64,000 bases of DNA from Owenia fusiformis (taxonomy: Eukaryota; Annelida; Polychaeta; Sabellida; Oweniidae): positions 22,303,754 through 22,367,753 of the forward strand of contig CAIIXF020000011.1 in NCBI GenBank assembly GCA_903813345.2, written 5' to 3'. Of this stretch, positions 1,842-63,477 are shown one piece after another; the stretch's first letter is position 1; each line of letters opens with the position of its first letter. The notes beneath the pieces were generated by a model. It was not told where the DNA came from and did not search any database. It worked only from the letters and a program-made list of their open reading frames with translations. A program made the position numbers and the translations under genes.

Positions 1842-2718
1842 ATGTCAAATGCATCACCTTTCGGTAAGATTTATTATAATTTAAGTCTCAATTGATAAGT
1901 GTCCCGAATCAAGGATCTCTAGATAAAGTAGTTTTCTCGAATGATAATCCTTGAATATAAACTACTGTATGGAAATTAAACATTTAATTCAAAGAATAAA
2001 ACATTTGATCGCTACACCAATTAAAAGGTAAAAAATTATACATTTAATACAAAGAATAAAATATTTGATCGCTACACCAATTAAATCTAAGGTAAATATT
2101 TTTTAGGAGGAGTTTGGCTTGTGTGTGTTGCAGCCTTTGTATCTTGTGACACTGCATCCAAATATGTAGATATCTATGAGACGCACTTAGGAATAATAGA
2201 TTCTACCGATTCAACAACATTGAATCAGTACAGTTTCTACCAGATAAAACTACATTTAACCAAATTAATCGAGATCTTGGAAGAACCAATAGGAATAAGC
2301 AAAAGTTTTAAAAAGACTCTTGGTGCAACTGTGAGAAAAATAAAGAAAGTTAAGATAAAGACATCTACTGATACATTTCTGAAGAGTTCAGAATTGAACA
2401 TGAATAAACTTAGAGGAATTAATGGAATTGATAATTTGAAAGAAGCAACCATTGACATGATATATGGATACAGATATTACGGCTATAAAGACCAAGAAGC
2501 TCTTCTGAGAAAGACACAACAGTTATATGATAACAATAAAGATAAAGTTAATACTCAGAGGAACCTCAAGGCTCAATATAATTTGATAAAGAAAATGCTA
2601 AAACAACAGAAAGATGTGATGAAAAAATTGAAAAGAATCAAATTAGTGGATGTAAACAAGTTTAAAAGTGAATTACCTAGGCCGAAATCGTCACAAGGGG
2701 AGCAATGTACAGACCAAG
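1842..2718 (+). CDS. Gene A exons 1-2: signal peptide and N-terminal lysine-rich helical domain
   Basis: Exon 1 (1842-1863) gives MSNASPF and splices in phase 1 to exon 2 (2107-2718). The joined start reads [20 protein letters not shown], then CDTAS, a typical signal peptide. Residues about 26-205 are lysine-rich and predicted mostly helical. They are conserved in gene B, including the motif YYGYxDQ (YRYYGYKDQ here, WKYYGYNDQ in B). No known family is recognised. Cysteine is absent until QCTDQ at the end of the exon. The start was chosen because this ATG, its donor CGGTAAG and the phase match exon 2. The single long exon could easily be mistaken for a free-standing gene. Confidence 0.75.
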
Positions 2719-5700
2719 GTATTTAGGACGCAAACATATTTAATGTAAAAATATATCATTTATTTCAAAGAAGCAAACATATAAGAACTATCATAAATGT
2801 TAATTCCATATTTCTTTGTCCAAGGCTTTAAAAAACCTGGACGCAACTAACAGTTTGAAAAGTAGGGAAATTACGCCAGATAAGAATTCAATTTGCCCAA
2901 ATCGCCAGTAAATCAACCAAATGACAAATATGTGCAATGTTCAATTAATGTATTTTTGAAAAAATAGGGCCAGAAGGGAATTCTCTGCCCAGGCCCCCAG
3001 CTAACGGTAAAATAATAGCCCAAGGTAAATGCAACTCGACTATCAAAGTAGTGTGCGATTGCGGATTCAGACTCCAAGGAGGAGCAGAAATATTTGAACT
3101 GAAGAATTATGACGAAAATGTTCCGGTTTGTCATCGTAAGTAGTTGTTTTATTTGATATAAAATTTCGATAAACATTGACAAAACATTGTGAGTTACACT
3201 TAATTTTGGCAAAGGCATTATCTACATATAGAGTTAAAAACGATGATATTTTGTTTTCAAAATTAAAATTCAGAAGCAAGATTAACAACGAAGACACTTT
3301 GGCAAGATTCGGAATATTTGTTGCAGCAAAGCCAATTGGATATTGGCCTCTCAATAGAAAGGATAGAGGAATCAACTTCGCAGGAGAGCTAGAGATATGT
3401 TATAGGGGAGCGAGGAAAGGATCAACACATGCAGCGAACGCATACTTAGACAAGAATACCATCTTTGTTGAAGGTGTATCAGGGCAGGACGGAGAGGCAG
3501 TTCAGCTGGTGGACGAACGATCATGCATAAGGTTGTAAAAAGTTAATACTGTCCATCTAAAATAAAATGATTTAGGACATTAACACATAGGCTAAATTGA
3601 TTACAACACATGATAGATATATGGAAGGACTTCGTATTATGCTATGTTATGTATGCATTGATTTAATTTCATATTACATGGTTTACTTCTTTATAGGATA
3701 ATAAACAAAGAGGGGTATCTCACGCCTACAAAGGATTTTACTTGGATGTTTTATATGAAACTCGACTCAACAAGTCGGCCATACATACCTTTACTGCAGT
3801 ACTCTTCCAATAGAAAAGCAAGGATGTGGGTAGGGATATCACTCAACAAAATTGAAGCTGGACTTACTATAAAAGGAATGGATGATATCATTGTATTAAG
3901 TAATGGTACATTAAACTGGAACAAATGGGTATATATCGCTGTTTCGTACGAACATCACACATCTGGTAATGGGTCGATCCTTCAACTCCATGTCTCTGCA
4001 GACTCACACTCGTCTTACCAAACAACACAAACTTTAAATTCAAAATCAAATGGAAAATCTAGCTTTGATCCATTTGATGTATATATTGGAAAAGATTCAA
4101 ATGTTCCTAGAAGTTTCGCGTGTTTAAAGTTCTGTGCAGCTGCCCTATCTATTGGGCAAATTGAGATGGCCAAAGCAGCTTGTAGACAAGGTGAGTGTGC
4201 GTAGAAAAAGAAAGCAATTGGACTAAGACATGCACGTATAAAATTAACATTGGTTTTACAATTTTTAGATATCTTATTGGGAAAATGGCCGCTGGACAAG
4301 CTGGATGGGTTGCATGACGAACGTACTAATCGCGAGGCGCTTATGAGTACAGGACCTTTCACTCCATTGGTAGATGGTCCAAAACGAAGGCAAGCATTTC
4401 AAGTTGGACCTTCATATTTCCAATCTAGCACGATGCAAATAGCAAATACATTTTCTTGGTTAGGTGCATTCTATGTTGAGGAAATATCTGATGACTTTTG
4501 TGCTCTCGTTGATTTCTCGAATACGACTAATTTTGGATTCCACATTTGGATCGACAAAAAGACCAATACTCTTCAAATAGGTATTGGAGAGCCAAATCGG
4601 AAGTATAGCGTCGATGGATCTGATATAGGACTTGCTATTGCGTTGAAACAATGGTATCATATCGGTGTAACATATGATGGAACATCAGGTCATACTATGG
4701 TATATCTAACAGCCGAAAACGGAACTATGACGAAACTTGAGTTCACATTGGCTAAAATGACTGATGGTACACTCAGCGCAAGTTGGCTAGGTAAAAGTGA
4801 AAAGAGAAAAATACCAATGAGGGGTAGAATAACATGCGTGGAGTTGTATGGCGCAGTAATCACGCAAGCGGAGATTGTAAGACTCTCTAGCAGATGTCTT
4901 GGACGTAAGTCAGGGAATCTAGAAATTAACATGCAAAAAGTCACCGCCTGTCACTTACTAGTATTACAGACGCCAACCACCGGACACCATCCGCCGAACA
5001 TCATCCACAAAAAGGTGGAGACTATAACATTATGTCACCACTTGTGGTGATGACATAATATATAAATGTTATTCAGATTAAGATGAATACCTTCATGTAT
5101 GCTTTGTATGAATCATTCTATTCTTTAAAAAATACATTTCATGTGTAGAAAACGAGTTCTTTAACAAAACTTGTACAAGCAAGCAGAATATTGCACCAGT
5201 TTTTGGATCAATCGGTGGCATTGGAGGAGAAACAGCAGAGGCCCACAGTTGGCCATGGATGGTTCAATTCCGTTATAAGGATACCAAAAAGCACCATTGT
5301 GGTGGGGCCATATACAACCAAAACACTGTCATATCAGCAGCTCATTGCTTCTTAGGGTTTGTATGAAACGTTCTGTATGGCATTCTTATAATTATTAGTT
5401 TTTTACTCATATTTACAAACTATTAAGACTTACGGTCATGTTTTAAATAGGCTTGTCCCAGAGCTTAAAAACGAAAAATGAATACAAATTATATATCTTC
5501 CTAGAGTTTACAATGATTTCGACAAGTTTGAAGCAGTACTGGGATCACATCGTAGAACGAAAAGTGAAGGCTTTCAAGTTGTGTATGAACTACGATCTGT
5601 TGTATTTAACGATAACTTCAATGAATCAGCTGATTGGCCAGGGGGTGTCCCCTTTGAAAGTGATATCGCACTTGTAATCCTCGAAACAAACGACACGTGT

Positions 5701-8700
5701 GTGCGGTTCAGTGATGCTGTTCAACCTATTTGTTTGGCAGATACAGAACCTGTTGGTGGTCAGATATGTGTTGCCCTTGGATGGGGGAAATCTAAAACTG
5801 GTATATATATTATATATATAGTATGTTTTTATATACTTAATACAGTACATACAAAACAAAAAGCATATAATAGATTGGTGCATCTAATAATTATACTATA
5901 CTTACTTTTCGTGATTCGAGTAAAATACAGAAAAGGTTGTGCCCGAAACAGCCTGTATTTTACAAGGCGCTGGGGCGGATAAGCGGAATGTTAGAGACTT
6001 CTTTGTTTTGGAATCAATGTTACAACTGTAGTGTTACTATTGGACGTTTCTATATGTGTTTTGATATGTTTTATTTTCCATTTGGCATTTGTACTTATTT
6101 GTACTTTGTATTTATTTTAGAAATGAGCAATGCACACGATGAGCTAAAACAACTCAGAATACCAATTGTATCATATCATAAATGTCAGCACCATTTGACT
6201 GATCTACATGTCAGTAGTTTTTGCGCCGGGCATCGAGAAAAAGAACGGCCGGATACATGCATGGTAAGTCTTATATTAAAATCCACATAATGCTGTTTAC
6301 CAAACGAGGCAACAAAAAGGTCGATATGGATATGGGTACCAAACTTATTGGGATTTAACTTTTGATTGACATTGTATGACATAGATAAAGGTAAATTCAT
6401 TCTGTAACTAATCCTCTTCTAAAACAAATTACGACGAGATATGTTGTAACGTAAACAATAAAACGTAAAATTCACGATCAATGTTTAAATGTCAAGGTCG
6501 ACAATATGAAGACCAATCCGACTTAGTTTTATAACTAGATGATCTGTCTAGTAGACTTACATCCTACATGCGATTGATTTATTTTATACTCATCATATCA
6601 GGGAGATTCAGGAGGCCCATTGTTGTGTCAGTTTGATGACGATCCCAAATACAAGTTAGCGGGTATCACGAGCTGGGGAAAACAAATCTGTGGTAGCGGT
6701 ACACCAAGCGCCTACACGAGCATAGCTTACCATAGGGAGTGGATACAGCGTGTAACAAGTGCAGGTTAGATTTTCGTGATGTTTTAAGTTTTTGTTCATC
6801 GAGTTATAGTGTCGGTTATTGGGGTTAGTTGTCTTTGGGACTGTTGTACCCTTACTGCGTTTTGTAATACCATACATCAGGGTATATAGAAACGCCAGCA
6901 TTTTCGTCTGGTAGAACTAGAAATACTGGACGTAGACCTCCATTTTCGATCCATAGAGAGGTAGGTATAATTTTACTCGTTAGCCTGTGATCGTTTTACA
7001 GTGTGTCCTTACCTTAAAACAGGCTCATCAGATTCCCAGTACATTGGGGAACATCCAATTTTTTATAAAATGACAGCTATCTATCAGTTATATTTTATTT
7101 GCAATTTCATTGACATGCGAGATATGCAATTTTCTTGTGTATGAACTAACAATACAGCCTCCAATCTGCAAATGTTAGCTTATAAGTGATCGATAAGAGA
7201 ATTACTTGACGAAATAAAAAATGTACTGGACGCAAGCCTGTTCATACCGGATGGCTTGCGTCCAGTACATTTTCACTTCGTCCGGTATTTCTTTTTTCGT
7301 TATTTTTCTATTTTCGATCATTTCAAAGCTAAAATTTGCCGACTGGAAGCTGTGATCTTATTCCATACACAAGAAAATTGCATATCTTGTCAATGTAATG
7401 GTAAATAAAGAGAAATCTGACTCGATTCATGTATTTCCTGGGAAAAAATCAAAGTATTTCCGTGCTTAACCCCACATTACAAAATATCTAGATGAATGAC
7501 TGTACTTTTATAAAAATTGTGTGTTCCTCAATGTACTAGGAATCTGATGAGCCTGTTTCTAGATAAGGCAACTGTAAAACGATCACAGGCTACCGAGTAA
7601 AATCACACCTACCTCTCTCTGGATGGTGGTCTGCCTCCAGTATCTCGGTTTGTACCAGACGAAAATATTGGACGCGTTTCTACCCCCTGTACATGTTAGT
7701 TTTTCCTTTAGATGTATGTTTCGCTCTTAAAAACTTAAATATGAGTCCATTTCAACAAAATACATGTGTAATGACCAGTATTGTCAAAACATTCAAATAG
7801 ACGTGTCCATATTTCACAGAACAAACGTGGTCTAATTGGGGGGACTGGAGCAGTTGCCATGCAACAGAATGTAGGCCATTGGTGCGCAGTAGAATGTGTA
7901 CGGATAAGGATAGCACGGTGTTAGATGACTGCATGTGTACAGGGAAGGGTCTTGAGCTTGACCTAGACCCGAGATGCCTACCATGTCACGGTCAGTGGAA
8001 CATCAGTTCTAATAAACAGTAACACAACCGAAGATGTTGTTACACGACCGCATGTGGTTAAGGTCAGGGTGCATGATGGGAAATTTTCTGCATTCCTCAA
8101 ATGAGTCACATGTTATTTTTCAAACAAGAATCACTCCTTCCCTTCACTGTCTATATCTTCCAGTTTTGCACAAATAGTGCACTTATGTGCCTAGAAAAGA
8201 CTTGTGAGAAGAATGTTGTGATAAAGTCTATAAAAAACAAGAAAATTCAGTGAAAAAAATCAGAAAATTTTCAGAAATTTTTTTCACTGAATTTTCTCAT
8301 TTTTTATACATTTTACAAAACAAACCTTCTCACAAGGCTTTTCTAGGCACAGAAGTGCACTCTTTGTGCAAACTTGGAAGATGTAGACAATGTGGGGAAG
8401 GAGTTATTCATGTTTGAAAAATAACATGTGACTCAATTGAGGAATGCAGAAAATTTCCCAACATGCACCTTGTCCTTAAACACTAGTAGTGGTTGAAAAT
8501 GCTTCAATGAATTTGATTGGTTCAAAGGTACTACCCACGTGATATAAACATCTTGGGTTGTGGGGCATCGGAGCTCCCATTTCCCGCATGTCAAAACTCG
8601 ACATATATCGCATTATAAAATGGTTTATTGTGTCTATGTTAGGTGCAAAAATTAACGGAGGTGTGTCCGTACGTAAAGACGACAGGGAAAACTTTGCATG

Positions 8701-11700
8701 GATCGTTTCGCTTTTTAATCATGAAGGCCATTTTTGTGGAGGAGTCATCCTATCCGAATATTGGATCTTGACTGCTGCTCACTGCATATGTGGCAACGAT
8801 GACACCAAAGTTTGCTGCAACCGTAAGCAGATTAATCAAGAGTAAGACTTTGACACCTATAATTCATCCGAACACGTCTGCAGTCACTCCTTCTATAAAC
8901 TGTGAACAAACTCAATATTTCACCCGGTATTTATTCGTGGATGCAATACCTGGTCTGTACTAAACGTTTCGTTCAGTGCTAAACGCTAAACCGGTAGTAG
9001 GAGGTTATGTGAAGATTTTGCAAAATTTTGGTTAGTTTTCATCTTCGAATCGTAATATAGACCCCAGACAGGTATGACATCGAGTAATAAATACCTTAGG
9101 GGTAGGTTCGGTCGTTCGGGGTACAGAAAACGTTTACGCCTAGCCCTGTCGCATTTATTCGTCGATATAACACCTTTCTTAATTTGATCACTGACTGGAA
9201 AGGTCCGTCGGAGGGCACATTTTGAAGAAAGTGCGTTTGGGAATTGTGAGAATGGTGCAAGTTTAAGCAATGTCTCAACATCTTTTTTATTAAAATATAA
9301 TAAACAAGACGTCATCAAAGTTCTATCACATTTGAGAAAGTTTCACCAAAATTTAGGTCAACCTGTATATATAGAATTTAAGCACACGACTCAATGAATT
9401 GTTGGTGAGCTAATGCCCTGTCTTGTGTGCTAGCCTTTAAATTCAGTCTCCCGTCCTCATTCAAAGTCGCATACAAGACCCTATCAGTATCATCCACAAT
9501 TTATTGAACCCAGGGCTAAATCCTTTAATCCATTTGATTGCTAACACAACAATTAGCCATTGGTATCTGTATGGTATTCTTATTCAGGTGTATTAACTCA
9601 CGTATAAGCACTTGGAAAGTTACTGCTGGTAAACTGTCTGGCTCAAAAAAATTGCAGAAAAACGAACAGAAGATGAATGTTAAAGAGATATATGTTCATG
9701 AAAATTATGACTGGGACATTACTATACTGTCAAATGATATTGCCTTGATTCGCCTCAATGATTCACTTAATTTCAACAATTCATGGATCAGCCCTGCTGT
9801 TATCAGCACTGGCCTCTGCGGAACGTATAGTGATGATGGCGAATGCGAAGAGAATATTGCTGACCAATTGAAATATCACGATTGTAGTATTGCTGGTTGG
9901 GGGGCAACAACTATGGGTAAGAATATCTTTTTATGTTTTTCAATTTATCTAAAGCGGAGGAAGAGGAGAGTTCCATCTGGATACAAAACATTGCTGAAAT
10001 CCATGTAAAGAGCCTTTCTCCATTTTGCATGGTCATCTACTCACCATTTTTAACACCTCATACTTGGTTTATTGAAATAACACAGTGTTAGTGCGAAACA
10101 TATATAAATACAGGGTGTTCAAAAACAGGACCGTAAGAAAGTTGAATAATTCGGTCAATTTTGCATATTTTCCCTTGAAATTTAAGAATTATTTAATTCA
10201 TTCAATGAGAATTTTGTTGTGAAAGTTTCATGATAATCTGTCGATTGTGTCAAAAACTACAGTACCTTACAAAACATGCTCAAAATGGGCACTTCTTCTC
10301 TCTATGCACAAATGAATCCTGCGAACAAAGTTGTTAATGACCCTGACCTAAACACATCAATGTGGATGGTACAAATTGGGGTAGTTATTGCCCTCTTAAG
10401 ATTGTTAGGGGCCTGTCAGCATACATATTGGCTTTGAGAAATCCCCAAAGATAAAAATCTGAGAGATTTAGATCTGAAGAATAAGCTGCCCATATGTTAT
10501 AAGTTCTGCGACATGAGCTGATCACCAAAGCATTGCTTAAACCATCTCATCGTATCATTTGAAGTGTTGGGGTGGTATTGGCTTGTTGAAACCAATGACT
10601 ATCTCCTTAGATGCCCCTTCTGGTGCTTAGTGACTTCCAAAACTTAGTTAGACCTTGAAAATGCTGGTTCTTGTTCATTGGAAAGCACGTCCCCAGTCAT
10701 CTTCGAATCAAAAAGGACTGATGATTCCATGTTTGCTCAATCCCACCCAGAGAGTGCATTGTTCAGAATGCAATGTACACTGTAACACTTCATCAGGAGA
10801 ATGTAAGCCCCAGTAGCAATTGTTCTTGAAATAAACTTGTCCATTCAAAAAGAACTGTAAGGAACTGTAACTTTTGACTTAATAAGCAGATTATTATGAA
10901 CTAAATAATTCTGAAATTTCTAGGCAAAATATGCAAAACTGACTGAGTTATTTAACTTTCTTACGGTCCTGTTTTTTGGACACCCTGTATATCATAAGAT
11001 CATCTGACTGTTGACTGTGTGACTGTTGTGTTCCTCCAATCACATTCAATTCAATTCAATTTTTATTCATACATTTAATCATAATGTGTACACATATCAT
11101 TAATAACAGGTGGCACCATAGGTGATGCTTATACATATAGTAGATAAATCATTTAGTATATCATTATGTTGTCAAAGAATCAAACCAGAATACAGCCCCA
11201 AAAGTTAGGTTAATAAATAAAGGTTGTGGGGGGGATCCATGATGCTCATTTCTTTTGAAGCCAAGAAGGCGCCATATGCCATGGGAAAAATATATGAATG
11301 TGTAGCTTCATTAATTATTATTTAAAGACGCCAGGCTACCGCGTTGACGCCAATAATCTTCTAAAAGAGGGATTCTCATAAAATATTAGTTATTTTTGTA
11401 CCTCCCCAAGGTTGGTACGATCAGAATCAATATGTTAAATCTTCACTAGTTCAGGGTCATGTACAGTACCTCCCTTGAGAGCCTACCCTCTTACCGAAGA
11501 AACAAGAAATGACATAGTCAACCAATGATAAATAAGCTGAGAGAATATGTTCCTTCAGTTCTGAACTTGAGTTTTTTATTTCTTCTGGGAGACGGTTCCA
11601 TATGGATGAACCACTAAAGGCTATTTTTTGCCATAGTTTTCAGTTTTTGCTTTGGAAAGGGTAAGTTTGATTTGCCTCTAGTGTTATATCTATGAAAATC

Positions 11701-14700
11701 TCCATGGGTTTTGAAATAATCTGGAAAAATAGTTTTTTAATTGTTTATATCATTTTTCCATTTAAAGACAAATTCAGCAATATTAATTTTATATATATAT
11801 CATGTATTTGTATGATTCTAAGCTCTTTACAAAGTGGTTGACTGTGGTCTCTATAGCCACTTTGAGTTGCAAACCTCACAAATCTCTTCTGTATCAAGTG
11901 TAATGGATTAAGGATTGTGGGATTTGTATTACCCCCTATTATGTTACCATATGTAAGGTATGAATGAAACAGGGAGTTGTAGATAGTGATAAAAGTTTTT
12001 CTGTCTAAGATGTGCTTGATCTTAAAAAGAATCCCCAGTGTTCTGGAGAGTTTAACTCCAATCATACTCGTGTGATCTTTCCACAATAAATGTTGATCAA
12101 TGATCAAGCTTAAAGTGTCTCACACATTCGATCAAAATTTGCCATGCAAACATGTTAGTCTACTTTACTGGCCCCCCTTGCTGTAACAAGGAACCCAAAA
12201 CACATCAAAACGTAAACATAAACCAATTAGTCACTTCACTATGAAAGTGGGGGTGTTAGCAAATGTATATTAGCAGAATACGCTGTGTGCATGGACTACT
12301 AGTAACTCAATATCAGTGGTCATTTACTGTGTCAACTTAGTAACCCTTGCATATCGTGCTCACTCAAGTATTGAATAATTTTTTTATGATCTAAATGTTT
12401 GTGGTTTATAAAAAATGTGATATATTTTAGTTAGAAATACATTAATTAATATATTCATTCAAACAGCACTAGAATGCGGGAAGAAAGAGCAATGGTGACA
12501 AAATGCAGACAGAATTTTCCGTAAGGGTTTCAAACATTTCTGGACACAATCATACATGTACTTCATGTGTACTGTTATTTTTAGTGCTGTATTTATAGAT
12601 ATAATTTCACGTATTAAAATCATATTTTCCAGCAATGTTTGTTTGTTTGTTTTGTTTGTTTATCTTTATTTCCTTCTCGAAGAAGAGCTTTTTACAAATA
12701 ATTATACAAGCAGTTATTTACAAACAATTATTTACAAAACAAATATATTTACATTAGTAATTTGACTATGTTTTACCGCATGTTTACTTTGCCACCAAGA
12801 TGATTATTTGTTCACATACATTTTCATTTAACTGAATGTCAGTATTTGAACCTAGGAGAGTTTCAACTAAAACTTCTTCATCGCCATTTAATAATTGACA
12901 AGATGAGCTCACGTCTAATGCATTCGTTATATTATCAAAAAGACGATCTCTTTCAATCATAAGTCCTGAACATTCCAAAAGGACATGTTTTGTAACATCT
13001 CTGTATTCACCCTGGCAAAGTATACATTTAACAGTGACTGGGTGATCTTCAATTAAAGCAAGTTGAAGAAGACTTGCCAAAGGCCACAATAAAGCTGGGT
13101 ATTGTTTTCCTAGCACATAATGTATACTCGGTTCTAATTGTGTGTGGATATTTGCAAATCTTTTGAGCCGAACATCTTCGTGAACCTGACTTTGATACAA
13201 CTGATTTGCCGACTCTTGGATGTTACGTTTAATTCTAAATTTCCACATATCTTTGGGTACTTTTTGACCATGACAGATGAACCTTTCAAAGTCTTCCAAT
13301 AAATACGGGTATTTACTCAAAATGTTTTGAATATCTTGAATGAAACCATCAGATTTCCTTGAACATGACATCCTCACTATATAACTGCTAATTCTTGATA
13401 TAAATATATGTCTCTGCACAGATTTTTCAGATGAATTAATCAGTCTGTTTAAAAATAAGAGCTTTGTTTTTTCAATATATTGTTCCATTGTTATTAGGCC
13501 AAGCGCCCCGATAGCTGCAACTGATGGTGTTTTCCATGGAAGGCCCTGGGCACGCTTGGCAAAATATCTCTGGACTCTCTCAATTTCTAGCTTTTGAGAT
13601 TTGATGATATTACCCCAAAGCTCACACCCATAGAATGCTGAAGGAAGTATTACTTTATTCCATATGTTAACAGAACAAATAGGATTCAAACCACCATGTC
13701 GTATACCAATTCCACACAATGAGTTGAAGATTTGTTTTGTCTTAACACAAGATATATGGACAGCATCATTTGGCGTAAGCTTTGTGTTCAACGTATTTCC
13801 AACATAAGTCACTTGATTGACAACAGGTATTGCTTCTTGACCTAATCTAAATGTGTTTTGTAGCATTTCGGGCACATTGTTTTTACTATTAAAAACAATA
13901 ACTGAGCTTTTGTTGCTAGACCCAGTATGATACACAAGACGCCACTTTTGGCTAAAATCAAAGACAACATTAAGTAGGCTCTGTAAGCCATCTACAGTGG
14001 GTGACAAAATGGTAGTATCATCGGCAACTAGAATTACAGGGATTTTTACATCATTAATACTTAAACCACAATTCATTGCATGTATCTCATCTATCAAGTC
14101 GTTTATGTAGACTAGAAACCAAAAAGCAGAACAAACACGACCTTGTCCTACTCCTGGGTGTACATAGAAATCCCGAGATGTCGTTTTACCATACATAACC
14201 TTTGCTTTTGTGTTACTATAGCTATCGACGATCAAACGCCATAATTTTCCACATATACCGGCCCGATAGAGCTTGACAAAAAGCCCCACCCTGTAGACAA
14301 GATCAAAGGCCATTTTATTATCAAGAAACGCTGCATACACTTTAGAGCCTCTTTCAGTATAATGAGTGACAGATTCTTTTAAAACAAATGTAGCCATCTG
14401 GCTACCACTCCCTTCTGAGTAAGCAAACTGTAATTTGTTTGGTATGTTGCGCGATTCAAACCAGGATTTTGTCCGTTTTAACACTGTTTTGTCCCATAGC
14501 TTATTTATTATTGGTGTTAAAGACAGACCTCTATAACTGGTTTTCTTCAACTGTGGCTTACCTTTACCCTTATAGAGTGATAGCATTATGGCCAGTTTAT
14601 GAGAATCTGGAACCTTTTCAATTCTTATAATAGCATTTAACAATTCACAAATAATCTTAAAAACAATTTCCCCTCCATACTTTACATGTTCATATGTCAC

Positions 14701-17700
14701 GCCATCATGACCAGAGGCTTTATTATTCGGACATGAATTCACAATAGTCTTTATTTCACTATGCGTTATGTTTTCTTTCAGAAATACATTTTCATGTTCA
14801 AACGTATCTTTCAAATTACTTAACATTTCCTGTTCAATTTCATTCTTGAATCCATCGTCAAAGTGATCATAACTACAGGGTGTCCCAAGTTCCTCAAAGT
14901 GATCAGCCTAAGCGCTGCATATGTCAATTGGATTTCTCAGGATTTGACCATTATGTTCAATTTCATGTCTATTATTATCTTTTAATAGCCTTGAATTTCT
15001 TACTACTTTATAAAAATACCCAATGTCGACATCTGCAGCGTTTTCGAGTTGAGCATTTTGTTCCCGTTCGTATGAGAATTTCGCTCTACGAAGTTCCCTT
15101 TGAAAACTACGCTTTAGTTCTTTGTATTTCATATAATATGGACATGTATTTGACTTCACCTTATTAGCGTTTAAAATCCAGTCTATTCGAGCTGATTTCA
15201 TTGCTTTGTGTAGTGTTTTCACATCACCGTACTTCCAGAATGGATTCAAAAAACTATGAAACTTGCCAGTAGGAATTGTTTCCCTTGCACATTGTATTAA
15301 GCTTTCCATCAGCTCATTAGACTTGATCTCTAAATCTTTAACATTATTCACTTGTTCAAATTTCATTAATTTGATTTTTGACTTAACTTTGGCTTTATAT
15401 GATTCAATGTCACCAGAAGTAGCCTTATTCCACTTTAATGATTCTGGTCCATTTAACCAATCCAAATCTTTAAATGTATCCACATTAAACGTCATCCTTA
15501 TTGGATGGTGGTTAGATAGTATTAACTCATGATCGTTGATGACAGTGCATGATTTTACAAGATCAAATTGTGTTTGAGGAACCATTATATAATCAATACA
15601 GGTTTTGTTTTTACCATCAGAACTCCAAACATGTGTAAACATTGACCATGTGAATAAAAATTCAGATTTCACGAGCTCTTTCCTATTCGAGTACCTCATA
15701 CACCCCTGCATGGATTTGAGTTGGATTCGCCTTTTATACGTGAGCCGACACACTCGCAAACGCTGATTGGATAAAGATTGCGAGAATCTTTAAAAACAAA
15801 TTGTCACAGGAACTCTTTCTATATTTTGATCATTAGTAAGAATTTGTATGTCATTAGCATTGTATATTTTCTTTTTTGAAGAAAATATTATGTATTTCGT
15901 CTTTTCAACATTAAGTGAAAGTTTATTTGTTTCAAGTCATGCTTGTATTGTTTTAAGTTCTTGATTCAGAGTAGTTTGTAGGTCCACTAATGTTTTCAAA
16001 GTTCAGATTTTCAGGAATCATGCAACCATATATAGATAGTTGTAATTACAAACTTGATCTTGATTGGTCAATTGGTTACCATGACAACACAATTTGATTG
16101 CAAAATATTGTAAATATTAAGGATAAATCCACTGTTTCACTACAAACAGATGGTAGCTTGTCATTTTTAATTCTTCAAAATGAATGCAAAGTTGAGCTTA
16201 ATACATATTGAAGGAGTTAAGAACAAGATAACATGATAAATATATGAATAGGTTGACATATTTGGCTTTAGACCCTACTCATGTTTGATAACTACTGTTC
16301 GATTGAACACAAAGTGGGCGTGGCATTTTTTGTTATAATGTTATTACATTTCCAAATAATTTCATGTTGACAGAATTATATTTACAAGGGTCACTGATGC
16401 ATATATTATTATCTTGTATGGTAAGTCTAAACATGTTTTGTCAATTGGTTGCCATAGCAACACAACATAATGCATGAAAATAGTTGGTAGAGGTCATTTC
16501 AGGCGCAATCCTTACATAAATTATTTATTACATTCATCTTTAAGTACTGTTTTAGTGTATGATCTTTTTTAACAAATACAAGTTTAGATAATATTGATGT
16601 GCATTTGCCATGGTAACAGAACTAATAATGCAGTTTGTTGAAATATTGCTCTGTTTGTCCGTCTGTCCGCCAATCTGTCTAAGCATTTCCTGACCCATTT
16701 ATTAATCACTATTGGTGTTATATTTGACAAAATGGTGATTCTTGATTCTAGAAGAGTCTAGAAGATGTACCAACTTAAAATGTATGCAATTTTTATCTAT
16801 TTGTGAATATTTACAACGATTTTACTCACGCGGTCCTAACTTCGACCGTTAATTTGAATTTTTGACCTACCGGATGTTTGAAAATCAAGGATTACGAGTC
16901 TCATACTGCACCGTTTTTCTTCAAACTTGTTCCATTCAAAGCATAACAAAAATCCCTTTCTGATGGTACATTATTCTCTTAAACAGAGTCCCTACTTCCA
17001 GCGGCATTTTGGTCCCCAGCTGTAAGAAGGTGTAATGACCCGAGGGCGCCCCAGGGGAATAACTAATTAACTAACAACTAACGAGCATAGTGTAACAAGC
17101 CAGATAAAGAAATTGAAAGAAAGTTTAAGCCTCTTTAGCTCAGTCGGTAGAGCATCAGACTTTGGATCCAAAGGTCCTAGGTTCGATTCCCACACGGGGC
17201 ATTGAATTTAGCACACTTTCTTTCAATTTCTTTATCTGGCTTGTTACACTATGCTCGTTAGTTGTTAGTTAATTAGTTATTCCCCTGGGGCGCCCTCGGG
17301 TCATTACAAAGGCCTTCTAACAGCTGGGGACCAAAACGCTGCTAGAACGAGGGACTCTTTACAATAAAGTAATGCACCGACAGAATTTTGTTTTGCTTTT
17401 AATGGTATAAGTTTGAGGGAAAACGGTGCAGTATGAGACTTGCAATCCTTGCAATCAAATTAACGGTCAAAGTTAGGACCGCGTGAGTAAAATCGTTGTA
17501 AATATTCACAAATAAATGAAAAATTGCACTACAGAGTAAACCACGTGTTACTGGAGTACTGGGAAAAACAAGACATTTACGTGCCAAATTGTTCTGGTAC
17601 CCCCGATGGGACACGGATGGTGGAACCTCGTCAATGGTCAAGAGTCTGTATTGGGTGACGAAGATTATATAAATGCCGGTGTTCCACAAGGCTCTATTCT

Positions 17701-20700
17701 TGGACCCCTTCTTTTCCTGATATATATAAATGATGATGATCTCCCTGAAACTTTATCAAGCAAATGCTATATTTATGCAAATGCTGCATCTCTAAACCAA
17801 CCTCCAAATCAAATCTCATTGAAAATGATGAAACTTTACAAACTGATCTTAGCTCAATTTTCCAATGGTCCAAGACATGGAAAATGAACTTCAAAGGCCT
17901 CTAAAAGCAAAGACATAATATTCTCAAACCCAAGGAAATGTGAATTCAAAGTTCCTGACCTTAAAATTGAAAATGATGTTCGACCTAAAGTTGATCATCA
18001 TAAAACTTTAGACCTCATTCTAAATAGACACCCAACTTTTGACCAACACATCACGGAGTTCACCAAAAGGATTGATAAACTCTTAAACCAATAAGCAAAA
18101 AATTAAATAGAAAACACCTGGAATCAGCCAACATCAACCAACACATCACAGAGCTCACCAAAAGGATTGATAAACTCTTAAACCCACTTAAACTAATAAG
18201 CAAAAAAATTAAATAGAAAACACCTGGAATTTTCAAATCTTTCATACTTCCAATTTTTGAATGTTGTGATACTAGTATTCTTTATGGTTGTGACTTTTCC
18301 TAACTAATCATTGGCTGGGAGTCTCTCTCACCCGAAGTTAAAGAATCACCAAACTTAAATACTTTAAATTAAAATTAAAGAAAGAATTACTGACAACCAA
18401 CATCATTAATATTTCTGAAGTGTCCTTGACAAGGAGCCAAGCAAGAAATAGGGTGCATTGTGATCTGAACTTTCAGTCCCATCTTTATGCTCCCACCTTT
18501 ACTTATGTACCATCCCCTACATGCAAATGTGGGTGTAGCAATGAAACATCCGTTCATGTCATGTTTTCCTGCCATCTTAGATCACCAGGATCACATTATC
18601 TTCAAGATTTAGAGGATGTACTTACTCATCTAAATTTTAATGACCCATTTAAAAACCAGCAAGAGAAATTATCATTATTTTTGTATGGGACAGAAGTCTG
18701 CCAATAGAAATTAATATAGAAATTTTAAAGATCACTTCAGCTTTTATCTAAAGGTGTGCAAGCGTTTCTTCCACCACCAACTGTATAATTTTGTACACAA
18801 TTATTCTTTTGTTTATTGCAAATTCATTGTCATATTTTCTTTTTCAAATGTCATTGTTATTCAATTGTTGCTAATAATGCTGTATTGCAAAGCCGCAACC
18901 TGTGTATGTAATAATCATATTTTACTATGGAAATAAATCATGTATGTATGACAAAAAACTCCATAGAACTTCATGGTGATTTGCATCATGAATCCCCATA
19001 TGACTCCGTGAGACTTTGCTCCACCAAGCCCCAGCTAGAATGAACTATATTATGGAGCACCGTGGGAGTGATGATCATATGACGTGTCAGGTGACTTTTT
19101 CGATCAAAATGACGGCGGAATAACCTTCTTAACTAAACCACGTCATGTCCGTTGAATCGATGTGGCACGATGGGACTCGATGGAGCAAGTTGGACTTTCC
19201 CCATGGGTAGTGCAAGTAAAAGAGGTTTAATCATAATTAAGCTGCATATTTGGTATCATCGTGTAAAAATGTTTTTCACCTCTATAATGGTAGCACAATA
19301 AACCATCAATTCACTGAGATATAATCTTTACTACACGCTTTACTACTAGGAAAACATAATATGACCATTTATTGATTTAGTTTGGCTTTAATCAGGTCAA
19401 TTGATATTAGTGTATGAAAGTTATTGAGGGTGTAAGCAAGGGTCTTTTTTACTTTAATATTAATCTTGATTCAAAGAAATCTGCCCAAAGGATTCACTTT
19501 CAATTTGTAGAAATGCATAGCATCATACAAATCTATACCTGGGAAATATTTATACAAATCAAGAGAGTTTGAGATTTTTTTAGAAAACATTTCATAACTG
19601 ACATACTTTTTTAAATCTAATTTTGAAAACTTCCTCGCTTTCCACGGGTAAAACAATTTGAACAATGATTAGATATCATTTAACGTATACCTCACTTGTC
19701 CGTCTGTCTGTCCGTCTGTCCGTCAACAATAGTGGCACGTTTAAAATCTCTGTCGATAGGATCCCCGTTTTAAATTATTTTTCATTCAACATCAATAAAG
19801 AAAACTCCCCTATGACTCCTGATTGAAACTTTCAAAATGACCTCTATTTTTGAATCGCAAAATTCACTTTTGGACCATTTAGTTGCTTTAGCTTTAAAAC
19901 CCCTGTCGATTAGATTCCTGTTTTTTTTGTTCAACATCAATACAAAAAAAACAGGTATGACTTCTTATTCAAAGGCTCGCCTATTTTTTTAAATTGCCGC
20001 CATTTTTAACTCGCAAAATTCTCTTTTTGACCATATCGTAGCTTTAGTATTAAAACCTCTGTCGATAAGATTCGTGTTTTAAATTATTTTTTTTCAAAAT
20101 GAATACAGAAAACCCTGATTCAAAAGCTCATCTTCTTTCAAAATGGCCAACATTTTTGACTCGCAAAATTTACTATTTGAGCATTTAGTAGTTTTAATTT
20201 CAAAACCTCTGTCGATAGGATTCCCGCTTTCAGTGATTTTTTTTAACATCAATACAGGAAACCCCGAGGTATGACTCTTAATTCAAACGCTCGCATACTT
20301 TCAAAATGGTCGCCATTTTTGTCTCGCAAAATTCACTTGTGGACCATTAGTACCTTTATGGTTTCGAAACTTCTGTCGATAGGATTCCATTTTTTATTAT
20401 TTTTGTTCAACATCAATACAGAAAACCCCCTATGACTCCTGATTCAAAAGCTCGCCTATTTTTAAAATGACCACAATTTTTGTCTCGAAAAATCCACTTT
20501 TGGACCATTTAGTAACTTTATAGTTTTAAAACCTCTGTTGATATGATTCTCGTTTTAAATCATTTTTTGTCTAAAATCAATACAATGATTCCTGATTCAA
20601 AAGCTGGCCTACTCTCAAAATGGCCACGATTTTTGTCTCGCAAAATTCTCTTTTGGGCCAAATTAGTAGCAGTTTATACTTTTAAAACCTCTGTCGATAG

Positions 20701-23700
20701 GATTCTCGTTTTTATTATCATTTTTGTTCAAAATCAATACAGAAACCCCAAAATGACTCCCGATTCAAATGCTCGCTACTTTCGAAATCCCCCCCATTTT
20801 TGCCTTGCAAAATTCACTTTTGGGCCATTTCTCTGTCGATAGGATTCCCGTTTTGAATTATTATTGTTCAACATCAATACAGAAAACCCCCATATGATTT
20901 ATGATTCAAAATCAAGCGTACATTCAAAATGGTTGCCCCACGCTATGTGAGCCCAGTACCCACGGTGCTATTTTCTATTTTTTGTGAAGCCACTCAGTAA
21001 ATTAAGATTTCTCTGCGCCACGATGTCCAATCCACCAATGTTTGCACGCTATATTGACGTAATTTATTTCTGAAACAGGTTATAGGCCAACCTAATTTTT
21101 TAACAAAAAGATTTTCACCACCAAAAAATGTGGTGATAATCAGTAGGAACGTTATATAGATAAATAAATATCTCAAACATCTCATTGTGCGGTTTGCTAA
21201 AAAGCAGGAACCAGTAGAGGATTTTCTGGGATTTGTGTTACTACTTAATACAAACTATCATAATTTTAAACTTTTTTTCAGAATTCGAAGCAATACACAT
21301 GTACTATAAAAAGTGTACATGTACTAGAATTCCCATGAGTTCTCATGTTCTCGAAAACAATTGGTAAAATAGGGATCTCAAATGACAGAAATAGGCAAAT
21401 CCCATGGGAGATTACAGATCAAGCTGGCAATATCATCACAGATAAAACAGCTGTGTTACAGCATTGGGCTGATACATATGCTGAGTTATTTGATGACGCT
21501 GGAGATAACAATTTTGATAATGAACATCTTAGATTTGTAAAGCACAGAAGCAAAGACCATACAATTGAAACAAATGATACTAATGCAGACATAAATACAG
21601 ATATAACGTAATATAATATAATAGAAGAAGTCACAAAAGCAGTAGCCCGGGCAAAAATACGTAAAGCAGTTGGGGTAGATGGCATCCCAGCTGAGGCATT
21701 AAAAAATCCCATCTGTATAGATCTCTTACACACGCCCGGTGATCGTACAAAAAGTGCTCAATATTATTCAAAAAGCAAACCAGGGCCATATTTTAGAAAT
21801 GAAACAACCAATCAATATCAAGCAAACAGTCGGAAATGTTCAACTATACTTCCAAAGTCGAGACCCAATCTTAAATAACATATGGAATGACAAGGGAAAC
21901 CTAATAAATGGAAATAAATGAGGAACATATAGGGAATTTAAAGTCGGTGTCTGCACCATCGAAAAATACTGGCAGAATTTAGATCTGGTACTTTGAAGTT
22001 AGCCATAGAGACAGGTCGCTTTAATAACATTCCATTACACAACAGAAAATGTCTTTTATGTGATAGTGACCAAGTAAAAATGAAAAAACATTTTCTGTTA
22101 CACTGTACACACTATATTGATATCAGAAATGACCTATTTTCGCATTTAAGAATTCATCTGATAATTTTAGTGTTGATAATATTACAATCCACTCTATAAT
22201 GACACGTAAATCTAGTCAAAGGAAAATTGCTTCTTCTTTATATAAAATGTTTCAAAAGAGGGCATTTAATCTGGAACGTTGGTGATAACATTGTAATATT
22301 GATGCTATTTATGTATTCATATAAGTGTCTCATAAGCCAGTGTAAAAGGGTAGGAGGTCCTATTAATTTATGGTCCTACTCTCCATTGATTTATATGGTG
22401 ACCTCTTTGTGCTCTTTCCCTTATCATCTTATACACAATCAGGGCCAGTAAGGGCCTTTAAAAGGGGACCATAATTCCTGGGGGACCATAATTTCTTTCA
22501 CACCGGCGTCGGCTAAAGGTTTTTATTAATGTATTTTAGTATTGTATTTTATTGTATATGTATGAACCTGTGACACTATAATTAACTATATAAACTAAAA
22601 ACTAAAAAACTATAAATCGAGTTATAAGTCAAAAGTTGAGTTTTGGAGGATCCTGTCGTTTCAGCTTTTTTGTATCACCTTTGTTTGATCAAATAAAACA
22701 ACCAGCTAGTCTCAATGTCAAACGCTGCATACGTGTGTAATTTTCATTTACACAGGCACGATTCCTTCAGATAAATTGAAATGGCTTAAAGATGTTATTG
22801 TTGTATCAGACACTGAAGGAAGAGAAGATTTCTTATTTTCCACTGCAACGGGAGATGGGACGGCCTGTAAGGTTAGTTACAGTAGCAGTACAACTGAATA
22901 AAGTTTAGTTCTACAAGTATTTATTTATTCCACTTTGGAATGATGCTGAAGCTTTAAATATCGACTTGTTTTGATCTGTTCTTTATCAGAGGGGTGATCG
23001 ATGGACACTTTTTACACCGATGCTCTTTATAGACCAATACCTTCGATTCTTTTGCCAGTGATACATCATTCAATTATCTATCAACTCTGAAGCTGAAGAT
23101 TTGATGACAAAACATGTAATATATTTTGATATATCTTTATTTCTGTGAAGGGGATATTGGGACCGTCATAACGTCACACATTCTGAAGCCATTTTAGCTC
23201 ATTTAACATGCAATGCAGTTGAATGCAAGCTGATCAAAACAAACAATAATGCTCACGAATTACTACACCATTTTGATATGCTTTAAATGATTATGAATAT
23301 TTTGTCATCATTTGCACTATGTGGCATTCATGCCACCTTCATTCTACAGGGGCCTTTACATAAGTCATTAAAACTGCATATCCGTTCTCTGTAGAATTAA
23401 GTAGTATAGGAATAAATGTGGCCAGATCTAAACTAAAGGGGTAGGGGCTAAGGGCTCCATGTTCAGGTCCATACAACACGTCTTTGACATCACAATACTT
23501 ACCTTTTATGTATTACCGGGCAGCATGATATTCCAAACAACACATCACTTGTGGTATATCAAAAAGTTTTAATCTAACTGAAATATGCCAAATTGGCTAA
23601 AAAAAACTTGTGAATATGTGACATAAATGTCTGTCCCGGTGTAAAAGGGTAGAAGGTCCTATTAATTTATGGTCCTACTCTCCATTGATTTATACGGTGA

Positions 23701-26700
23701 CCTCTTTGTGCTCTTTCCCTTATTATCTTATACACAATCAGGGCCAGTAAGGGCCTTTAAAAGGGGGACCATAATCCCTGGGGGACCATAATTTCTTTCA
23801 CACCGGGTACTTCCTTCACGCAAATAATAGTCCCTGATCTGGTCCCCCTTGAAACAAGTTTTGTTGTCCGGTACTTTCCCACAAAAAATGATTGCACAGT
23901 TTGATAGAACAGACTACCCCCTTAAAGAAAATACCTCTTAAATTGATAGAAACAGGGGCAAAAGGCACCAAAATGGGGTTAGACAAGGTGGCATTCTGAA
24001 GTCTCACTTTCTTGTCATCACGATTCCAGGAAAACCACCAGATGGATTTACTTCAAATGTTACATGGTAAGAAGTTCTAGAGCTGATTAACTTTTCTGCG
24101 GCCATCTTGCATTCTGGCGGCCATGTTGGAATTGTTTTAGATAAATATTGTCATCGCCATTCCAGAAAAACCACTTAACAGATGTACTTCAAATGTTCAC
24201 ACATGTTATATGATAAAAAATCCCAGACCTCATTATTTTTTTGTTGGCCATCTTGGGAGTTTTAAGATAAATCTTGTCATCACGATTTCAGGAAAACCAA
24301 AGAGATTTACTTTAAGAAGTTCTAAAGCTAATTAATTTTTCGGTGGCCATCTTGCATTCTGGCGGCCATCTCGGAAGTTTTTGGATAAATCTTTTCATCG
24401 TGATTCCAGGAAAACCACTTTACTGGTTTTCTTGAATTTCTTATACATGTTACATGGTAGGTTACATGCTACCTTTTATATTGATATAAACAGGGGCAAA
24501 AGGCACTAAAATTGGATCAGAAAAGATGGCATTCTGAAGTCTCACTTTCTTGTCATCACGATTCCAGGTAAACAACCAAATGGATTTACTTCAAATTTTC
24601 ACACTTGTTACATTGTAAGAAGTTCTAAATGTGATTAACTTTTCAGCGGCCATCTTGCATTCTTGCGGCCATCTTAGAAGTTTTAAGATAAATATTGTCA
24701 TCACGCTTTCAGGAAAACCAAATGGATTTACTTAAAATCTTCACACATGCTATATGGTAAAAAGTTCTGGAGCTGATTAACTTTTCGGCGGCCATCTTGC
24801 ATTCTTGTGGCCATCTAGGAAGTTTTTAGATAAATCTTGTCATCGCGATTCCAGGAAAACAACTTAACAGATTTATTTCAAATTTTAACACATGTTAATA
24901 GTAACATAGCCGAAAAGTTAATCACCTCTAGACTTTCTTACATGTAACATGTGTGGAAATTTGAAGTAAATCCGTTTGGTTTTCCTGAAATTGTGATGAC
25001 AAGATTTATTTAAAAACTTCCAAGATGGCCGCCAGAATGCAAGATGCCCGCCGAAAAAATGACAAGAAAATGAGACTTCAGAATGCCACCTTGTGTAACC
25101 CCATTTGGTGCCTTTTCCCCTGTTTCTATCAATATAAGAGGTGTTTTCTTTATAAAGGAAGTCTGTTCTTTCAAACGGTACAATAATTTTATGTGGGAAA
25201 GTACCGGACAACAAACTCCTTATATAGAGCCGCTTTGGAAATCAGATCAGGGACTATAAAGATATATTAACATGTATCGCATATTTTGTCTTCAAATCTT
25301 CAGAGTTGATAGATAATCAAATGATGTATCACTGGTAAAAAATCAAAGAGATTGGTTTTTAAAAAGCATCCGTCTAAAAAAGCGTCCATTACTTATTGAT
25401 CACCTCTCGTAAAAAGGAATATAAAGGTTCAGCTCCTCTTTAAATATGGTTTCATATGTCGAAAGGGTCGAAACTTATTATATATCGGGAGACGTTGATA
25501 GGCATATTGTTCCCAAACAAAAAAGTTGGGAAAAGTCAACATACATGTAGGATCCCAATAAGGGAGTTGCTTTACTTGTATAGCTGAATAGAGCTAGATA
25601 AATAGAATGCAGATATGCTATTGAAAAGAAGGACTTAGTCTTGCTCAAAGACTGTATCCACCCCCCTGTCACCTTCACTCTCTTTACCTTGCAATATACA
25701 GAGAGAAGGATAAAGGGGGGGGGGGGGGGTACAGGATCTTTTAAGCAAGACTAGGCCAGACTGTCATAGGCTTCAAAGTTAAAAACTTGGAATAGTCTCT
25801 TAATTTTGTGATTTATCAAAAAGTGTTGGTTGAAGCTGTCTAAAATTTGAATGACATACTATTAGGGATGACCCTGTCGAACGAATTAACCAAGGTTTTT
25901 AATAAGAATTTAAAAATTGCATTATGGAGATTTGGTCCCCACTATTTAGAAAAGTGAAAAAGTCATGGAAAATGACTCCAATAACATAACTGAATTAATC
26001 AAAGATATTTATGTGGAAAACTTTTCACTGAATGCAGATATGCTATTGAAAAGAAGGACAACTAAGTCATTAGGGGATTCATATGCTTAAAATCTCACGA
26101 AAACACGAGAATAAACGAGATTTCAAGCATACCTCTTGATATACGTTTTGAATCTTTTGATAAGGGTGACAGTGGTGGACCGATGATGTGCGATGATCCA
26201 AACGGTAATACACGAGTTGTAATGGGCATCATGAGTTATGTTGATCTCGAAGGCTGTGTACCAGGCGTCATCAAGAACTTTCACTCATTTGTACCCTATT
26301 TTCTACCATGGATAAGTGAAACAATAAAAGGTATTGAACAACGTTCACCCTGGGTATAGTCTGTCACGTGACTTCATGGATGACGTGTGCGCGAGTGATT
26401 CGCATTTTCTTTCGCTTGAGGTTTGTAATCACACTTTTTACATGTTTTAAGATTTTGTATCTCTGTGAAACTTGTCCCGTACCATCAATGTCTGAAGACG
26501 ATCTAATTCACCAAATATCTCATCCAAGCGTGTCCCGGTTAAAGAGAAATTCGCACTTTTGTGTCTCGCAAAATGACGTGTGCGCGAGTAAATCGAATTT
26601 TACGAAGGATGGGTGCGCGAGTCTAAAATATTTTTATTCACTTGAGACAATTCTGCAAGCTAAGGCAGAATACAACTCACGTGACATTTGTTTTTGTCAT

Positions 26701-29700
26701 CTTAAAGTAGTATGTTAAAGAATAGTTTGCTATTTTGTAGATGTTTCATGTATGGCACATACATGTCTACGTTTAATGACAATAAATGTTTTGAAATAGC
26801 TTGTATGGCTGTCCGGCATTGCAGGTGAATTAAAATTTGAACCAAAAATTGAATTAAATTTTTGGCGGTCTCATAAAACCGGCAGCATATTCATTTATTG
26901 ACATCCCATACAAGGGGGGGGGGGGGTCAGAGTTGTTACGTGGTTACTCGGCATCCGCCACGATCAGAACCATGTAAGGAATAGTAAGGGGAAGCCCATG
27001 ATACCAAGTAATATCAAATAATTATAGGAGCTTCTAACTTCTTCCGCATCCCCACCCTTGGTATACGCAGCTGACAAAATGGATCGGTACGGGTCAAAAG
27101 CTGGACCTGTACGGGTGAACTTTGGGGGTACTTAAAATCATTCGGAGGGATCATATATTTCAACTTAGATACGAAGAAGTCAATATTGAGCAAGTTATAG
27201 CTGTTTTAAATTCAAATAAAACCGTTAACCCGTACCGGTTCAGCTTTTGACCCGTACCGATCCATTTTGTCAGCTGCGTATACCAAGGGTGGGGATGCGG
27301 AAGAAGTTAGAAGCTCCTATAATTATTTGATATTACTTGGTATCATGGGCTTCCCCTTACTATTCCTTACATGGTTCTGATCGTGGCGGATGCCGAGTAA
27401 CCACGTAACAACTCTGACCCCCCCCCCTTGTATGGGATGTCAATAAATGAATATGCTGCCGGTTTTATGAGACCGCCAAAAATTTAATTCAATTTTTGGT
27501 TCAAATTTTAATTCACCTGCAATGCCGGACAGCCCTACAAGCTATTTCAAAACATTCATTTTCATTAAACGTAGACATGTATGTGCCATACATGTGTAAC
27601 AACCGGGGTCACACTCGCCTAGCCTGACGTTACATAAAATTATGAGATGTTACAAATATACTTGAAATTTCTGTGGTAGCGTGTATATGGCTTTGACTAG
27701 GGAGTGTGTTGGTTGTTATGAATTCTAATCTGCTCTACTGACAACTAACTGTCACACTGATCTCAATAATAACATAAAATATGATTTGAATTAAAATATA
27801 TATATTATGTAACCAACTAAAAGTATGAAATATGTACAATGAGTTTTTACAATGAAGTTAAGGTCTTTCAGATGGTATGTCAAACAAGATACTGTAAATA
27901 CCTAACAAAACAGTTTTCAATCTTATTACCAATCTGACCTTATATAATACACACAACTACATGTAGATGCTCCACAACACTAGTGCCACCTTTTGGCAAA
28001 TATTCAAACTGATAAAAGTACACACATGGCAATGAATATCTATCTTCAACTAAAACCTTGCAAAATTAGTATGCTACCCTAAGCTGGTAATATTCACAGA
28101 ACAAAATGAGATATAATTCTGAACATATCTGATTGGAATCAACGATAGCAACTAAAAGAAATGATGTAGAATCTCAGAGTTTGCAAAATTAGGTCACTTT
28201 ACTTAGCGGTCTATTTCTGTTCAAAACTAACTTCCTTACCCTATTTAACTTGATCTATCTTATCCTAGGCCATTTACTGTGAACAGAATCATATCCTATC
28301 CTATCTTAGGACCTTAAGTCCTACATTTAAGACGATTATAATCTGCACAATATAAAAATGACAATCTCCTAAATTCTCCACGTGCGCCTCCTAACGCTTT
28401 TATAAGACGTGCTCTGATTGGCTAATCTAAACTAGGCTGAAGTTTTTGGCACCAAATTCAAAAGTTATAAAAAGTTTAAATGACCTTTAAATCTTACAAT
28501 AAAGTGAAATACAAATATTTACATTAACAGATATATGAAATAATTAAACTGGGCATGAAATATAAAAAGTAACAACCCAGGGTTGTTACACATGAAACAT
28601 CTACAAAATAGCAAACTATTCTTTAACATACTACTTTAAGATGACAAAAACAAATGTCACGTGAGTTGTATTCTGCTTTAGCTTGCAGAATTGTCTCAAA
28701 TGAATAAAAATATTTTAGACTCGCGCACCCATCCTTCGTAAAATTCGATTTACTCGCGCACACGTCATTTTGCGAGACACAAAAGTGCGAATTTCTCTTT
28801 AACCGGGACACGCTTGGATGAGATATTTGGTGAATTAGATCGTCTTCAGACATTGATGGTACGGGACAAGTTTCACAGAGATACAAAATCTTAAAACATG
28901 TAAAAAGTGTGATTACAAACCTCAAGCGAAAGAAAATGCGAATCACTCGCGCACACGTCATCCATGAAGTCACGTGACAGACTATACCCAGGGTGAACGT
29001 TGTACTCTTTCAAATTTCTATTTCTTAAATATTATGTAGCAAATAGTGTTTGAGGATGTGCAAAAATTATGCTCCTTAGAGGACGCTCCATGGATCTCTA
29101 CTAGCTGCAATTGTCATGGCAACGCAACGACGGGGAAAAGGCAAAAATACAGAGTGTGTAACAACCCCCTTATCACAGATAATTCACAGCCTATTTATGC
29201 CACGTTTCCTTGCACTGAAAAGAAGATGGAGGGGTGTTCAGGTAATATACACGATATACCAGTTAATTTACTGTATAAAATATTGTAACGTGGGGACAAA
29301 CTAAATATGTCAGATACCAGCTTTACCCTCTCAGTTAGCAAAGACAAACCAAAACTAATATGCCAGCCTTACCATCCAAAGCCAAACATTGCAAAATATT
29401 CTGTCTCAATATTATGTTTATAACTCAAAGCTGAGCCTAAAATGCTTTTATCGGCGATTGGAAAGTTCTTCTGTATTATAAATAATTATCGAGAGAAATA
29501 TTGATAAATAATAAAAAAAAACATGCTAGTCAATGTCTTTCTATCGAAATTGCCGTGATCTGTCTTAAACAAGTTTTTGTTTTAGACTGTTTAAGCAATG
29601 ACGCCGATGCCTGTGTGCAGGACGATTTTCATGAGAATGTTGAATGGACCATGGAACAATTTGACAATATTAGCAGAGCCCTTGGTGAAATACACACTGC

Positions 29701-35820: not shown

Positions 35821-36166
35821 AGAGATGCATACATTGCAAATAATCAACCTAAGCCCCCTTATCTGGTCGCGATCAACTCTCAATGCTGATGACCTATAAA
35901 CCTTATTATAACGTTCCTATGATGATGTATAGTGTAAACTGTTCACAAGACAGCGGGCCAATATAACTTTTAAAAAGCCCGCGCCCGCTAACTTTCTGAT
36001 TGGTCAAGCGCTGGGACTACGTCATACATTAGGCCTAATTGACTCGTACATTCGTAAGATATAAACATGGGAATAAATCATCATTTCCGATCCATTGCTA
36101 GTCAAGAAACTCTCTAGTCAAGTACTCTCTGACCAGACTTGATCATCATAGGTATGTTATAAATCG

Positions 36167-36280: not shown

Positions 36281-36289
36281 ACCTCTAAT

Positions 36290-38190: not shown

Positions 38191-38348
38191 TTTTGTCTAA
38201 CTTGAGATAAATTGATTCGTAATATGTTTGTTTTTTCTTTATTGTAACTGCATGTATTTAAATTCTGTACTTATATTTGTATATTTCATCGAGGTTTATT
38301 GTACTCTGATTATATACTTCATAGAAATTTATAATGTTTCTAATTTAG

Positions 38349-63475: not shown

Positions 63476-63477
63476 GT

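Follow-up and report, generated by a model that had tools for sequence, protein, structure and literature searches.

A tandem pair of predicted mosaic S1 proteases in Owenia fusiformis whose members differ by one whole protease module

Background

The Limulus clotting factor C is an arthropod recognition protease in which small modules and a lectin-type module precede one S1 domain; its modules are of the C-type lectin, EGF and CCP types, not LamG, and nothing follows its single protease. Chains with two or more S1 domains are known as polyserases, among them human polyserase-1, -2 and -3; polyserase-3 has its S1 domains in tandem, without the added domains of polyserase-1 (PMC1435904). Another arrangement is that of the MASP1/3 gene of the lectin pathway, in which two mutually exclusive S1 domains are joined to N-terminal modules in common, with CUB, EGF and CCP as the domains that MASP-1 and MASP-3 share (PMC3759447). 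The complement system is held to come from gene duplication and domain shuffling (PMC11312191), and LamG-domain proteins in tubeworms are reported to have expanded by tandem duplication (PMC8476170).

Here we describe two adjacent paralogous genes, copy A and copy B, in a window of 64 kb (the whole stretch of DNA analysed) from the annelid Owenia fusiformis. Copy A resembles the polyserases in that two S1 domains lie in one predicted chain; unlike polyserase-3, it has lectin-like and small Cys-rich modules that flank and separate two unlike proteases. It also resembles MASP1/3 in being one gene with N-terminal modules in common and two S1 domains, and differs from it in having LamG-like modules in place of CUB/EGF. 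With regard to the CUB-EGF-CUB-CCP-CCP A chain of MASP1/3, a Pfam search at E ≤ 1 detected no CUB or EGF match in copy A or copy B. On the best reading, the family described here is ordinary in kind. The module order of copy A is not named in the titles or abstract openings among the matches listed by a word-match search of the open-licence literature.

Results and discussion

Gene model and modules of copy A

Copy A lies on the plus strand at 1842-30184, where 18 exons, separated by introns with GT-AG borders in 17 of 17 cases, can be joined in frame to encode a protein ending at the stop codon 30182-30184. The open frame gives exactly the 1469 residues that an earlier, sequence-only reading had assigned to this stretch, and the gene model of that reading holds as far as the sequence alone goes. 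The exon borders of both copies were placed by hand, those of copy B with copy A as the guide; the match in exact borders between the copies is partly built in, and tblastn backs the exons, not each exact border. The features of both copies are listed in Table 1. The candidate first exon of copy A is putative; joined to the next exon, it would give a start in keeping with a signal peptide, residues 9-19 being the most hydrophobic 11-residue window in the whole protein. A blastn comparison of 801-2110 with 36001-38352, in which a copy B counterpart of this exon was sought, returned chance-level matches only.

Table 1 Features of the two tandem copies in the window
Feature	Position	Strand	Remarks
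Copy A, candidate first exon (MSNASPFG)	1842..1863	+	ATG, GT donor, phase 1; 22 bases; choice unproven
Copy A, hel1, N-terminal basic domain, probably helical	2107..2718	+	37% identical to copy B
Copy A, small Cys-rich module, first labelled CCP	2968..3135	+	62% identity between the copies (50 residues aligned)
Copy A, LamG-like jelly-roll 1 (LamG1)	3327..4190, exons 3327-3531 + 3697-4190	+	Laminin_G_3 stretch
Copy A, LamG-like jelly-roll 2 (LamG2), one exon	4269..4904	+	best Laminin_G_3 stretch, residues 559-703
Copy A, protease 1 cassette	exons 5149-5356, 5505-5800, 6121-6263, 6602-6764	+	Pfam Trypsin, residues 737-976
Copy A, TSP1-like module ([10 protein letters not shown])	7820..7990	+	57% identical to copy B
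Copy A, protease 2	exons 8643-8841, 9588-9916, 22756-22871, 26165-26330	+	second Trypsin stretch; PDB S1 chains
Copy A, small Cys-rich module, first labelled TSP1-like	29080..29241	+	33% identical to copy B
Copy A, hel2, 62-residue segment	29586..29771	+	25% identical to copy B; dN/dS 0.89
Copy A, EB-like module and stop codon	30051..30184	+	PF01683
Copy B, hel1	38349-38948	+	
Copy B, CCP-like module	39352-39507	+	
Copy B, LamG1	40025-40226 + 40394-40893	+	
Copy B, LamG2	41065-41724	+	
Copy B, TSP1-like module	41874-42050	+	
Copy B, single protease	42147-42333 + 42619-42932 + 43550-43674 + 45013-45190	+	
Copy B, small Cys module	45624-45779	+	
Copy B, hel2	45872-46066	+	
Copy B, EB	46248-46376	+	

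A Pfam search of the copy A protein gave two Trypsin stretches (whole-protein E 2.8e-83) and two Laminin_G_3 stretches (E 4e-14), which bears out both the LamG-LamG pair and the two S1 domains read earlier from the sequence, the latter with a catalytic triad present in each. The Laminin_G_3 profile (PF13385, cut-off 27.6 bits) scored 53.4 bits in the whole copy A protein and 61.9 bits in that of copy B. Cut out alone, LamG1 of copy A reached 22.3 bits, below the cut-off, and the same region gave a weaker Peptidase_A4 match of 17.9 bits (cut-off 22.3). A PDB profile search with LamG2 returned at best an uncharacterised protein at E 0.025, besides a pentraxin at E 0.27, no convincing relative, and the structure predicted for LamG2 from a two-row alignment had a mean pLDDT of 38, a confidence too low, as for hel1 below, to support a search by fold.

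The labels first given to three small modules, CCP, TSP1 and a second TSP1-like, found no Pfam support at E ≤ 10 in either copy, and the first two found no support from PDB families either. Among the 8 PDB matches of the supposed CCP module (two-row profile) there was no CCP chain; the best was a biofilm surface protein at E 0.00067, whose two repeats taken singly gave E 4.7 and 6.8. The single PDB match of the module at 7820..7990 at E ≤ 10 (E 0.98) was not a TSP1 domain. The spacing W-x-x-W-x-x-W is kept in this module of copy A, and on its sequence we call it TSP1-like only.

The domain hel1 had no Pfam match at E ≤ 1, and its best hit in a PDB profile search (E 0.019) was no convincing relative. 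It is probably helical, judged from an AF2 model built on a two-row alignment, which is all-helical with a mean pLDDT of 45; its charge is basic in both copies (37 K+R against 19 D+E in A, 34 against 15 in B). The segment hel2, judged helical by eye only, is acidic in copy A (3 K+R, 12 D+E) and not in copy B (7 and 7). The EB segment, when cut out, scored 24.8 bits in copy B and 20.8 bits in copy A (PF01683, cut-off 24.3); within the whole proteins, copy B gave 17.4 bits and copy A no match at E ≤ 1.

A tandem paralog lacking the first protease

The second gene, copy B, is located at 38349-46376 on the same plus strand, 8 kb downstream of copy A. Its frame is open across 13 exons and 12 GT-AG introns, in a model that excludes the first exon and the spliced end, neither of which was located. 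Pfam recognised one Trypsin stretch and two Laminin_G_3 stretches in its protein, with EB under the cut-off for the whole protein. The module series of copy B is that of copy A without protease 1, and the body common to both copies is hel1 - Cys module - LamG - LamG - TSP1-like - protease 2 - Cys module - hel2 - EB. Since a paralog 8 kb downstream repeats it, the series in copy A is not due to chance. The module order proposed by the sequence-only reading had omitted the 62-residue segment before EB.

Eleven of the 12 copy B introns each have a single counterpart of the same phase in copy A. The twelfth, of 149 bases, runs from the LamG2 exon to the TSP1-like exon and occupies the place of the protease 1 cassette of copy A. 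The introns at module borders are all in phase 1 (10 of 10 in copy A and 8 of 8 in copy B), and such class 1-1 borders are typical of extracellular modules that have spread by shuffling. By module, the identity between the copies ranges from 25 to 62%. Over 1131 aligned codons dN/dS is about 0.25 at a dS of about 1.9, which is near saturation, so that the value is rough; by module, dN/dS extends from 0.17 in protease 2 to 0.89 in hel2, two short modules having no usable dS.

Copy B joins the N- and C-terminal modules in one series, which argues that the modules before 4904 and those after 7820 in copy A belong together, and the earlier doubt whether copy A is one gene or two is answered in favour of one. 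That 1842-6764 and 7820-30184 are two separate genes, as an in-frame stop just past 6764 might suggest, together with the hairpin-bearing intron of 1055 bases that parts the halves, is highly improbable against a paralog in which both groups of modules stand in one series with the 149-base intron at the corresponding place.

The two proteases

In copy A, protease 1 sits between LamG2 and the TSP1-like exon, and since copy B has the series without it, we regard protease 1 as a cassette. Its outer introns are both in phase 1 and its inner introns in phases 2-1-0; flanked by phase 1 introns, it can be inserted or removed with the reading frame kept intact. The cassette may have been gained in copy A or lost from copy B. 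A tblastn search of the 64-kb window with copy A at E ≤ 1, in which a second protease 1 was sought, gave weak cross-matches to protease 2 exons only. Proteases 1 and 2 agree in their inner introns, which have phases 2-1-0 at matching positions. A recent origin of protease 1 by duplication of protease 2 was considered and rejected, the two being 23% identical.

Protease 1 shows the S1A features of a Pfam Trypsin profile and a His-Asp-Ser triad (His778/Asp835/Ser931), together with Asp194, and its best PDB match is enteropeptidase (E 3e-35). By alignment its pocket contains Asp189, in DTCMGDSGGP, with Gly216 and with Ser226, which departs from Gly. The usual activation site, Arg/Lys followed by Ile/Val-x-Gly-Gly, is not found: position 15 is Gly, position 16 is Gly or a gap depending on the alignment, and the activation region ([11 protein letters not shown]) is Gly/Ser-rich. 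With no Arg/Lys at the activation position and the nearest Lys 13 residues N-terminal to the Ile of IGGETA, it is doubtful that protease 1 is activated as a standard zymogen.

Protease 2 also shows the S1A features, in its profile, its triad (His1086/Asp1156/Ser1257) and a Lys-Ile activation site, AK-INGG in copy A and EK-IAGG in copy B. Its PDB S1 matches, at best E 2e-15 in copy A (in two pieces) and 1.2e-18 in copy B, are weaker than those of protease 1. Between the copies it is 48% identical, and the 168-182 cysteine loop is missing from it in both. The Asp189 of trypsin specificity is not found in protease 2 of either copy; according to the alignments the pocket has Thr189 (TACKGDSGGP, both copies) with Val216 in copy A and Ile216 in copy B, a combination which we take to be a closed, elastase-type pocket. 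With these residues protease 2 is not trypsin-like in specificity. The earlier description of two trypsin-like proteases fits the pocket of protease 1, with its Asp189, and not that of protease 2.

How the two proteases may be used

Our leading reading, which we hold tentatively, is that the two tandem copies encode secreted animal mosaic S1 proteases which arose via exon shuffling, and that copy A would carry both proteases on one chain and may be self-starting. What the sequence shows is the open exon structure, the module order, the paralogy, the triads and the pocket residues; the phase 1 introns at the module borders, the recurrence of the series in copy B and the inner intron phases common to both proteases favour this reading. 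One transcript would carry all 18 exons of copy A, and the LamG-like and small modules would tether the protein to a surface or matrix ligand. Protease 2 would be the constant enzyme, its zymogen cut after Lys at a trypsin-type site, and would itself cut after small residues, as its elastase-like pocket suggests. If activated, protease 1 with its Asp189 pocket could cleave the activation site of protease 2, be it on its own chain or on one nearby, a cut which in copy B would have to come from another protease; copy A would then possibly be a self-starting version of copy B. A role in recognition within an innate or extracellular cascade can be imagined for such proteins.

Splice sites were scored with a small matrix made from these same introns, leaving one out at a time (29 introns). 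The donor ending the cassette at 6764 is good, with 9.1 bits (9th of 29 donors), which favours the one-transcript reading. The acceptor into the cassette has 2.4 bits, the third lowest of the 29 acceptors, and the next acceptor after the cassette 4.0 bits, the fifth lowest; the weakest of all is that of the exon first labelled CCP. The weak acceptor into the cassette and the modest one after it speak against the one-transcript reading and would suit skipping. Gly15 and Ser226 of protease 1 and the missing 168-182 loop of protease 2 also count against the leading reading.

It is possible, if on the whole doubtful, that copy A is one gene with alternative proteases, whose transcripts either stop behind protease 1 or leave it out, each protein then having one protease as in MASP1/3. 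Beyond the weak acceptor, skipping the phase 1-1 cassette would give the arrangement of copy B, and the MASP1 gene is a precedent (PMC3759447). When the donor at 6764 is unused, the reading ends at once (RVTSAG, stop) in what looks like a natural S1 end, and AATAAA occurs at 7213 and 7404 in the intron that follows. However, that donor is a good one; where a phase-1 donor reads GTTAG, its own letters bring about a stop right behind it, the same motif being present at the TSP1-like exon of copy B; and both AATAAA fall inside the span of a hairpin repeat at 6895-7671.

We consider it unlikely that protease 1 is catalytically idle or zymogen-locked, serving as a binding module or being lost, a view that would be compatible with either our leading reading or the use of alternative proteases. 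The activation site without a basic residue would fit it, as would the fact that copy B manages without protease 1. On the other side, protease 1 keeps all three triad residues together with Asp189 and Asp194, its frame is open across four exons, and its GC3 is 0.363 against 0.366 for the whole gene.

To our mind quite improbable is a self-starting relay on one chain, in which the trypsin-type protease 1 would activate the elastase-type protease 2 at Lys-Ile and protease 2, with its expected preference for small residues, would cut the Gly/Ser-rich activation stretch of protease 1, with copy B as the enzyme without the starter.

With neighbouring paralogs of which one has a whole protease module more than the other, the contribution of a second catalytic domain to a mosaic protease can be judged by direct comparison. 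Should both domains be active in the same chain, a single protein would unite an upstream and a downstream step of a cascade; should the proteases alternate, the gene would parallel MASP1/3 independently.

Repeats and neighbouring features

In copy A, both introns that flank the TSP1-like exon contain a hairpin repeat (6895-7671 and 8054-8483); the corresponding introns of copy B (149 and 96 bases) are too short for such repeats. The 12.8 kb intron of protease 2 contains a reverse-transcriptase frame of 707 residues on the minus strand (12784-15789, RVT_1 E 2e-15), probably a LINE. A shorter RVT_1-like frame on the plus strand (17540-17887) is below the cut-off. A palindromic repeat at 16790-17522 has 94-base arms that are 100% complementary and a 90-base centre, within which a tRNA-Gln was predicted by ARAGORN and Rfam (17129-17201).

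An inverted repeat, 26338-26751 / 28590-29003, has 414 bases that are 100% complementary and starts at base 8 of the intron that follows the final exon of protease 2, with further near-perfect inverted repeats within it at 26747-27594. It may be a recent foldback-type insertion or a product of assembly. Downstream of copy B, a 322-residue open reading frame on the minus strand (53171-54139), with no Pfam match at E ≤ 1, is putative coding only, and at 63015-63479 another gene starts, with an N-terminal match to DUF4140 (E 1.8e-10).
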